Shown here piece by piece: positions 27,812 to 30,027 of a stretch of DNA of 64,000 nt; within the stretch, counting starts at the first letter, position 1, and each line of letters starts with the position of its first letter. The translations under genes were made by a program, and so were the position numbers. The notes under the pieces were generated by a model, which was not told the origin of the DNA, searched no databases, and saw only the letters and a program-made list of their open reading frames with translations. Source of the DNA: Halohasta litorea (lineage in GTDB: Archaea; Halobacteriota; Halobacteria; Halobacteriales; Haloferacaceae); contig NZ_JANHDJ010000002.1 in the NCBI RefSeq assembly GCF_024494645.1, positions 310,001 to 374,000 of the forward strand, written 5' to 3'.

Positions 27812-27865
27812 GGAATCGCATTCTGGAACTATGTACGGTCTGTGCCAACTGTCGGGTGTACACCA

Positions 27866-29002
27866 ATGAGTAATCATATCGGCGCACCCGGACGGGGTAT
27901 CTCACGGCGTGAGTTTCTGGCAGCGACCGGTGGGGCCGGTGTCCTTTCGCTTGCGGGCTGTTCGGCACCGACCAACAACGCCCTCGGCGGGGTTCGACCG
28001 CAGGTCGAGTCGGGCGACCTCCCGACGACGAGCCCGCCGGAGGTCGTCAACGTCGACGAGCAGGGCGGCTCGGTGACGATGTCGACGGTCACCTCGCGGC
28101 ATCAGGTCCATCCACTCGATTCGATGGGTGGGCCGATCGAACTCCCACGAGTCTGGGCGTTCCAGGCCGACGACGGCGAGCCGAGCGTCCCCGGGCCGAT
28201 CCTCCGGACGACCGAGGGCAACGATATGGAGGTCACCCTCGACAATACCGACGCGAGCCATCCCCACACGCTCCACTTCCACGGGGTTCGAAAGACCTGG
28301 GAAAACGACGGCGTGCCGACGACGACCGGAATTCAGGTCGATCCCGGCGAGCAACACACCTACACGATTCCGGCAAACGTCCCGGGGACGCATCTCTACC
28401 ACTGTCACTACCAGACCCAGCGGCACATCGATATGGGGATGTACGGCATCCTCCGGGTCGACCCCAAGGGGTACGAGCCCGCCGACAAGGAGTACTTCCT
28501 CACCCTGAAAGACTGGGACTCGCGGCTCTCGAAGATGATGGACGGGCAAAGCGTCGACTACAGCCCACGGGACCGGACCCCCGATGTGTTCACGATGAAC
28601 GGCAAGAGCCTCCCGCGGACGATCCATCCCGAGGAGGGGTCGCCGATCATCGTCGACTCGGGGGATACGGTTCGGCTCCACCTCGCGAACTCGGGCTACA
28701 TGGCCCACCCGATGCATCTCCACAACCACCGCTACCGACTCATCGCCAAAGACGGCGGGCAGATCCCCGAGGCGGCCCAGTTCGAACAGGACATCACCAA
28801 CGTCCCGCCCGCCGGTCGACACACCATCGAGTTCGAGGCCGACGCCGACCCCGGCATCTACCTCATGCACTGCCACAAGGTCAACCACGCCATGAACGGG
28901 ACCTTCTATCCCGGCGGGATGGTCAACGCGATCGTCTACCGGGATGCGATGGACACCGACGTCTTCGCCCAACTCATGGAGTACGCGGGCTACGAGGGCT
29001 GA
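27866..29002 (+). CDS. Two-domain multicopper oxidase, Tat lipoprotein
   Basis: 378 residues. N terminus has a Tat motif (SRREFLAA) with lipobox LAGC (Cys32), so the protein is exported folded and lipid-anchored. Two cupredoxin domains: domain 1 with HPHTLHFHG (132-140) and HCHYQTQRHIDMGM (179-192); domain 2 with HPMHLHNH (281-288) and HCHKVNHAM (335-343). The paired His-x-His motifs can form the trinuclear cluster. Domain 1 also carries Cys180, His187 and Met192, which look like a type 1 site; domain 2 has Cys336 and His341. It is laccase-like rather than a clear nitrite reductase. Two bases before the halocyanin gene, so one operon. Confidence 0.9.
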   Translation: MSNHIGAPGRGISRREFLAATGGAGVLSLAGCSAPTNNALGGVRPQVESGDLPTTSPPEVVNVDEQGGSVTMSTVTSRHQVHPLDSMGGPIELPRVWAFQADDGEPSVPGPILRTTEGNDMEVTLDNTDASHPHTLHFHGVRKTWENDGVPTTTGIQVDPGEQHTYTIPANVPGTHLYHCHYQTQRHIDMGMYGILRVDPKGYEPADKEYFLTLKDWDSRLSKMMDGQSVDYSPRDRTPDVFTMNGKSLPRTIHPEEGSPIIVDSGDTVRLHLANSGYMAHPMHLHNHRYRLIAKDGGQIPEAAQFEQDITNVPPAGRHTIEFEADADPGIYLMHCHKVNHAMNGTFYPGGMVNAIVYRDAMDTDVFAQLMEYAGYEG

Positions 29003-29004
29003 CC

Positions 29005-30027
29005 ATGACCGGAGACCACGCGCAGCCACCGATCTCACGGCGTACCGTGCTCCGTACCGGCGCAGCGATCGGCACGGCGAGTCTCGGACTGACGACTGCC
29101 GGAGTCACAGCAGCCCAAAACGAGGTCCAGGAGCCCGATTACGGCGACTGGTTCGGCAACGTCGGCAACTACGACAGCACGGTCGACGAGCGGGGCAGCG
29201 ACGAAGTGACGATTACGGTCGGCTCGTCGGCCAACGGCGGGGCCTACGGCTTCGATCCGGCAGCGATCCACGTCGACCCCGGGACGACGATCGTCTGGGA
29301 GTGGTCCGGCGACGGCGGGAGTCACAACGTCGTCGCCGAGGACGGCTCATTCGAGAGCGAGCTGACCGAGGAGGCGGGCCACACCTTCGAGTACACCGTC
29401 GAAGCCGAGGGGATCATCACCTACGCCTGTTCGCCCCACAAGTCGCTGGGGATGAAAGGCACGATCGCGGTCGGCGACGTCGAGACGGTCACAGTCGAGA
29501 CCGCCAGCGAGGGCGAGAGCGAAGCCGACGACAGCGAGGACGGTATCGACTACGATGGCTGGTTCGAGAACGTCGACAACTTCGAAGAAACCGTAGACGA
29601 ACGGGGCAGCGACGAGGTGACGATTACGGTCGGGGCCGACGGCAACAAGGGTCACTACGCGTTCGATCCGCCCGCGGTCCGGGTCGACCCCGGGACGACG
29701 ATCGTCTGGGAGTGGGCCAGCGACGGGCCGAGTTACAACGTCGTCGAAAACGAGGGCCGCTTTGCAAGCGATCTCACAGGTGAGGGCGGCCATACCTTCG
29801 AGCAAACGGTCGAGGACCGTGGGATCGTCAAATACGTCTGTTCGCTCTACGAGCGGATGGGGATGCGCGGTGCCGTCGTCGTCGGTTCGCCTGACGCCGA
29901 TGGGGGGTACAGTCGGAGCGATCTCCTGACGCTGGGCGGCGGGCTCGGTCTCGTCGGCGCCTTGGTTTCGGTGTTCGCCGCTGGAACCACCAGCAAATCC
30001 GGACAGTCGGCAGAATCCGGCCGCTAG
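29005..30027 (+). CDS. Two-domain halocyanin with a degenerate second copper site
   Basis: 340 residues. Tat signal (SRRTVLRTGAAIGTAS) but no lipobox Cys; two halocyanin-type blue-copper domains (about 45-157 and 183-295); C-terminal hydrophobic helix (LLTLGGGLGLVGALVSVFAA) as an anchor. Domain 1 has all four ligands: His107, Cys142, His145, Met150. Domain 2 keeps Cys279 and Met287 but has Tyr244 and Tyr282 where the His should be, both explainable by CAC to TAC changes. The frame is intact. It should carry electrons to or from the multicopper oxidase encoded two bases upstream (inference). The two domains share the GSDEVTITVG start and DPGTTIVWEW, showing internal duplication. Confidence 0.92.
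   Translation: MTGDHAQPPISRRTVLRTGAAIGTASLGLTTAGVTAAQNEVQEPDYGDWFGNVGNYDSTVDERGSDEVTITVGSSANGGAYGFDPAAIHVDPGTTIVWEWSGDGGSHNVVAEDGSFESELTEEAGHTFEYTVEAEGIITYACSPHKSLGMKGTIAVGDVETVTVETASEGESEADDSEDGIDYDGWFENVDNFEETVDERGSDEVTITVGADGNKGHYAFDPPAVRVDPGTTIVWEWASDGPSYNVVENEGRFASDLTGEGGHTFEQTVEDRGIVKYVCSLYERMGMRGAVVVGSPDADGGYSRSDLLTLGGGLGLVGALVSVFAAGTTSKSGQSAESGR

Follow-up and report, generated by a model that had tools for sequence, protein, structure and literature searches.

Type-1 copper sites are a textbook case of a rigid and conserved ligand set. Halocyanin, the blue copper protein of Natronomonas pharaonis, is reported to be an exported, membrane-anchored one-electron carrier (PMC8305020), and a study of Haloferax mediterranei reports co-regulated halocyanin/plastocyanin and multicopper oxidase (MCO) operons (PMC11218638). 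The halocyanin described here is encoded in a 64,000-nucleotide stretch of the Halohasta litorea genome, hereafter the window. It resembles the N. pharaonis protein in belonging to the TIGR03102 domain family and in having a first domain (D1) with the full ligand set, but is built of tandem domains, the second of which (D2) has tyrosine in place of both histidine ligands.

Two other systems offer partial parallels. The top Foldseek match of the halocyanin model is PDB 9cck, a Nitrosopumilus maritimus MCO with a C-terminal cupredoxin domain. Here too an MCO and a cupredoxin carrier form one unit, but 9cck is a single fused chain, whereas the window has separate adjacent genes and an additional, ligand-poor cupredoxin domain. 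Plant early nodulin-like proteins (ENODL) contain cupredoxin-fold domains that are reported to be unable to bind copper and to be kept for another role (PMC4499708). The likeness is one of analogy, as these are plant phytocyanins that have neither a tandem copper-binding domain nor a tie to an MCO.

The halocyanin and its upstream oxidase

The halocyanin gene (29005-30027; all features given are on the forward strand) starts with ATG, has an unbroken frame and encodes 340 amino acids, and its start codon lies 2 bp past the stop codon of a two-domain MCO gene. A signal region recognized in the sequence (29005-29115) includes the residues SRRTVLRTG, whose RR motif we take to be Tat-type. The D1 core (residues 49-157; 29149-29475) contains a complete type-1 copper ligand set, with codons for His107 at 29323-29325, Cys142 at 29428-29430, His145 at 29437-29439 and Met150 at 29452-29454. 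An acidic linker that is predicted to be disordered (residues 158-185; 29476-29559) leads to the D2 core (residues 186-294; 29560-29886), in which the set is incomplete: the cupredoxin-fold domain lacks both histidine ligands, with Tyr244 (TAC; 29734-29736) at the first histidine position and Tyr282 (TAC; 29848-29850) at the second, and keeps Cys279 (29839-29841) and the axial ligand Met287 (29863-29865). A C-terminal hydrophobic stretch (residues 307-327; 29923-29985) is a probable membrane anchor. The residues at these ligand positions in both domains, and their numbering, are exactly those given in an earlier note on this DNA, which was also right that the frame is intact. Both domains match the halocyanin family far above chance: the NCBIfam halocyanin-domain model TIGR03102 aligns to two stretches with 256.1 bits (E 3e-77; cut-off 93.8 bits), and our own halocyanin profile scores 183.1 bits with D1 and 154.0 bits with D2, covering all 109 positions in each. 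Judged by its ligand residues, D2 is predicted to be a halocyanin-fold domain with no classical blue copper site.

The MCO gene, the first of the pair, occupies 27842-29002, with a methionine codon at 27866 a likelier start than the GTG. Its product has an RR in the signal region, presumably Tat-type, as well as Cys40, which we take to be lipobox-like, and the products of the two-gene unit are both predicted to be exported. Cu-oxidase_2, Cu-oxidase_3 and Cu-oxidase all score above their Pfam cut-offs. Invariant HCH-plus-His motifs are present in each half of the protein, presumably reflecting type-1 copper in both halves; the copper motifs and Cys40 are shared by every one of 61 homologues (the 63 MCO-linked loci described below, minus two with short MCO rows). 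The best sequence matches among solved structures are the two-domain MCOs 3g5w and 2zwn, from which the window MCO differs by its HCH-plus-His motifs in both halves. Copper nitrite reductase (NirK), which the gene at first resembled, was rejected as its identity, and we refer to it as a two-domain MCO because its TIGR02376 score is far under the cut-off (66.6 bits against 296.3). No characterised haloarchaeal two-domain MCO of this kind was found in the literature searched. At a threshold of E<=1e-60, 106 of the family's 170 genomes encode the two-domain MCO.

The gene pair is present in one other (G001) of four genomes of the genus, counting the window's own, and no comparable MCO-linked two-domain protein was found in the remaining two, G002 and G003. 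The window and G001 proteins are 71% identical for the halocyanin and 87% for the MCO, and they differ at 30 of the 109 D2 residues. D2 of G001 reads SHNVV...CTPHESMGM and has all four ligands (His-Cys-His-Met), with CAC codons at both positions where the window has TAC, and with CCC rather than CTC just before the second. Because this only same-genus relative keeps four D2 ligands, the change to tyrosine in the window species is recent, and for the window itself a decay confined to one strain is possible. We also note a two-domain halocyanin-like protein that is not linked to an MCO, encoded elsewhere in the window's own genome (L007; G000:C29) and in G002 (L026), whose ligand positions read His-Ser-Asp-Met in D1 and Ala-Ser-His-Met in D2. 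With serine for cysteine in both domains, and in two species of the genus, this protein is probably copper-free throughout.

Distribution and origins of the tyrosine pair

A DNA pattern specifying Tyr-x-Cys-x-x-Tyr-x3-Gly-Met, which other kinds of ligand loss escape, turns up in 11 of the 170 family genomes and 35 of the 391 class genomes, and a reversed control gives none in either. The class search identified 36 places, and among the 30 loci examined are 23 with tyrosine at both positions (Tyr/Tyr; the window included), five with leucine and tyrosine (Leu/Tyr) and two single-domain proteins. All of the Tyr/Tyr and Leu/Tyr proteins have two domains and adjoin an MCO; the single-domain proteins (L236 and L237) keep the first histidine and have tyrosine at the second (His-Cys-Tyr-Met), and no MCO was found alongside either. 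With two extra codons fixed, the pattern matches 18 stretches in a collection of 84,980 species, 15 of which are haloarchaeal halocyanin genes; the other three (L074, L077 and L079, all bacterial records) have no halocyanin match. Among the 15, a Halovivax asiaticus gene (L070) has one matched domain, again His-Cys-Tyr-Met with the first histidine kept. Another of the 15, from Haloglomus irregulare (L081), has its halocyanin frame split by an in-frame stop, as apparently has the MCO too, and these split frames in a draft genome are either pseudogenes or sequence errors.

A catalogue of 108 distinct two-domain proteins was compiled from matches to the window protein at strict E-values and from matches to a Cys-x-x-Tyr pattern, a non-random sample in which the proportions of D2 states do not represent frequencies. 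D2 reads His-Cys-His-Met in 64, Tyr-Cys-Tyr-Met in 33 and Leu-Cys-Tyr-Met in five; the remainder are Ala-Ser-His-Met (two), and Leu-Ser-Tyr-Thr, Tyr-Cys-His-Met, His-Cys-Gly-Met and His-Ser-gap-Met (one each). All 33 Tyr/Tyr proteins, including that of the window, are encoded directly behind an MCO gene on the same strand, although at one locus (L040/G079; L219, G079:C2:128500-134500) the Tyr/Tyr halocyanin is intact and only the last ~100 MCO residues are found upstream, and at another (L084) the fetched stretch stops inside the MCO. With linkage defined as an MCO match of more than 150 bits, 63 proteins are MCO-linked: the 33 Tyr-Cys-Tyr-Met, 23 His-Cys-His-Met, five Leu-Cys-Tyr-Met, and the single Tyr-Cys-His-Met and Leu-Ser-Tyr-Thr proteins; two His-Cys-His-Met proteins (L034 and L214; 74-76 bits) are excluded from this count. 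D1 is His-Cys-His-Met in all 63. The combination of a Tyr-Cys-Tyr-Met D2 and an MCO occurs in Halogeometricum, Halomarina, Halorarius, Haloglomus, Halosegnis and Haloarchaeobius.

The Tyr/Tyr proteins do not form a single lineage. In the MCO tree the window and G001 are paired (SH-aLRT 99) inside a set of 24 rows (support 100) that otherwise includes 17 four-ligand, five Leu-Cys-Tyr-Met and one Leu-Ser-Tyr-Thr protein and lies away from the other Tyr/Tyr proteins. A constraint that unites all 33 Tyr-Cys-Tyr-Met rows lowers the log-likelihood by 265 units (p-AU 3e-109), and in a halocyanin tree with the D2 ligand residues masked, a Tyr/Tyr clade is rejected with the window (p-AU 0.00028) but not without it (0.65). 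A single Tyr/Tyr ancestor shared with the window is therefore rejected on both trees. For the other 33 (32 Tyr-Cys-Tyr-Met proteins and the Tyr-Cys-His-Met protein), a single origin is not rejected, one clade also being acceptable in the MCO tree (p 0.216). Because these tests separate the window from the other Tyr/Tyr proteins, the Tyr/Tyr state has at least two origins among the MCO-partnered halocyanins, a recent one in the window and an old one in another lineage, and the window protein is not by descent a member of the conserved Tyr-Cys-Tyr-Met clade. It shares with that older clade the gene pair, the architecture and the four D2 residues, but lacks residues specific to the clade, among them Asp248 and Ala266; it may nonetheless work in the same way.

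The Leu/Tyr group (family code f8; L169, L171, L189, L192, L193 and L207) is a further MCO-linked case of histidine loss from D2, within which L207, sister to the five Leu-Cys-Tyr-Met proteins, reads Leu-Ser-Tyr-Thr, having lost the cysteine and methionine and kept the tyrosine at the second histidine position. The Tyr-Cys-His-Met protein (L212) is a paralogue in genome G267, where a Tyr/Tyr copy (L199) exists as well, and is sister to a Tyr/Tyr protein (L173); it seems that the second position can revert to histidine, or that in L212 the histidine was never lost. Reversion to histidine within the conserved clade itself, in three proteins nested there in the free tree (L203, L213 and L214), is not supported, a tree with the clade held together scoring the higher likelihood. 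Whether D2 is His-Cys-His-Met or not changes at least seven times on the halocyanin tree, and a test on independent pairs, of which there are too few, shows no significant association between ligand loss and lying next to an MCO. Tyrosine accounts for five of the six histidine replacements in the MCO-linked groups (Tyr and Tyr; Tyr and Tyr; Leu and Tyr), with p between 0.0016 and 0.011 in a post hoc calculation that assumes each replacement to have a 0.2-0.3 chance of being tyrosine. Adding L007 (twice), L217 and L070 gives six of ten (p 0.006-0.047, likewise post hoc and at assumed rates); these counts precede L236 and L237, which would add one tyrosine, and omit the gap in L100.

Constraint and predicted fold of the second domain

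In the conserved clade the D2 tyrosines, cysteine and methionine are each present in 32 of 32 proteins, as are Ala266 and Asp248; at position 248, 22 of the 23 four-ligand proteins have alanine. Invariant columns number 34 in D2 and 22 in D1, and the mean pairwise identities of the two domains are 0.66 and 0.64 respectively. Cysteine is encoded by TGC in 20 proteins and by TGT in 12, and the tyrosine codons are TAC 63 times and TAT once; since the tyrosine codons barely vary, synonymous turnover is uninformative at those positions. Comparisons by the NG86 method give close-pair ratios for D2 near those for D1, and it is on the close pairs alone that we rely, the all-pairs dN/dS medians (0.45-0.51 for the conserved clade and the four-ligand MCO-linked proteins, D1 and D2 alike) reading as saturation and GC bias. 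These patterns of sequence conservation indicate that D2 of the conserved clade is not decaying.

Constraint is less well supported for the window itself. NG86 dN/dS between the window and G001 is 0.25 for D2, 0.20 for D1 and 0.15 for the MCO. When changes are polarised with nine chosen outgroups, they divide between the window and G001 as 11:4 for D2 (p 0.12), 3:4 for D1 and 11:7 for the MCO, and no split is significant by itself. With each of four single outgroups, D2 splits lie between 12:6 (p 0.24) and 17:4 (p 0.007), and a D1 split of 12:3 (p 0.035) is reached once. Evolution of the window D2 has probably accelerated somewhat, as would accompany lost constraint or a changed role. The earlier note had asked whether the two tyrosines are conserved and D2 is under purifying selection; the nearest relative has histidine at both positions and 32 other MCO-linked halocyanins have tyrosine, and the D2 ratio against G001 is well below 1 in a domain that is probably somewhat accelerated.

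An AlphaFold2 model of window residues 49-294, built with 49 aligned sequences picked from the 63, has a mean pLDDT of 91.9, with D2 blocks at 94-98 and a disordered linker; because pTM is 0.53, the placement of D1 relative to D2 is not readable from it. Predicted D2 superimposes on plastocyanin 1bxu with a Z-score of 14.2 and an rmsd of 1.6 over 89 residues. A model of a conserved-clade protein (L041; 42 sequences, mean pLDDT 90.9) likewise shows a confidently predicted D2. D2 is thus predicted to keep the cupredoxin fold, which would put both tyrosines in an intact framework of that type.

Interpretation and significance

The likeliest scenario, to which we lean with modest confidence, has D1 as the electron carrier of the pair and D2 as a cupredoxin module that holds no copper and serves in structure or docking. 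Its ligands and the adjacency of the genes suggest that D1 would exchange electrons with the MCO through its full type-1 site; if D1 alone came to serve the oxidase, copper in D2 could have become dispensable, with the D2 surface still needed to space D1 from the membrane and to dock on the MCO, and with the tyrosines filling and closing the vacant metal cavity. D2 looks repurposed rather than simply broken, because distant relatives independently made and kept the same double exchange beside the same oxidase gene. The earlier note had offered a tyrosine-based site, a structural module or a decaying domain; the invariant Tyr/Tyr pair in 32 non-sister MCO-linked halocyanins favors a D2 that is kept for a function but has no classical type-1 site, and a tyrosine-based metal site has gained no positive support. 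Counting against a spacer or docking role is the retention of Cys279 and Met287, which would be superfluous in a pure spacer (L207, related to the Leu-Cys-Tyr-Met proteins, has lost both), and, for the window itself, a sister that keeps all four ligands.

That sister is also the starting point of a serious rival for the window itself, which we regard as appreciably less probable: D2 may be in early decay, having lately lost copper binding, with its likeness to the Tyr/Tyr clade a matter of chance, CAC to TAC being a single transition. The retention of His-Cys-His-Met in G001, the excess of window changes in D2 and not in D1, and the slightly higher D2 dN/dS all fit such a history. However, the frame, the cysteine, the methionine and the predicted fold are intact, dN/dS is well below 1, the D2 split is not significant alone, and tyrosine at both positions equals the state of an independent, conserved lineage. 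Relatives with all four D2 ligands had been named as grounds for reading this as one strain's decay, and G001 is such a relative; as the whole story, one-strain decay is ruled out by the 32 other proteins in the Tyr/Tyr state. A different and rather improbable alternative is that D2 is a new working site, in which two tyrosines, cysteine and methionine bind a different metal, or hold copper in a new geometry, or form a tyrosine/cysteine electron-hopping or radical relay between D1 and the MCO. This would better explain why cysteine and methionine are fixed with the tyrosines in all 32 conserved-clade proteins, and it accords with a double histidine-to-tyrosine change made at least twice and with the second-position tyrosine of the Leu-Cys-Tyr-Met and single-domain proteins; against it, L207 lost cysteine and methionine and its tyrosine stays, the invariant residues may be structural, and no cupredoxin metal site of such composition was found in the literature searched. 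That search, with subscription journals mostly outside it, likewise yielded no paper on histidine-to-tyrosine halocyanin sites. Sequencing or assembly error at both codons is very improbable: the assembly is in 34 contigs and each tyrosine codon is one C-to-T change from the relative's histidine codon, but the genome is rated 99.94% complete, the open reading frame is intact, the 30 D2 differences from G001 mark a generally diverged stretch, and Tyr/Tyr is also present in independent genomes.

With a retained structural or docking module as the preferred reading, the Tyr/Tyr D2 is real and reproducible and goes beyond a strain curiosity, and the window is a recent, independent instance that could be drifting. 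Loss of the D2 histidines in MCO-partnered halocyanins is recurrent, having led twice to the same Tyr/Tyr pair and to its fixation once. These tandem halocyanins thus amount to a replicated natural experiment, in which both histidines of the second site became tyrosine at least twice while cysteine and methionine stayed, and one lineage has kept the result across many genera. The window and G001, as a sister pair with TAC and CAC at both positions, allow the effect of the change to be measured directly. Were the new-site alternative true, haloarchaea would have twice reached a working cupredoxin site of two tyrosines, cysteine and methionine, either a phenolate/thiolate metal centre or a tyrosine/cysteine electron-hopping relay, that couples the type-1 copper of D1 to the MCO. 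For two-domain proteins annotated as 'halocyanin domain-containing', two coppers should not be assumed.
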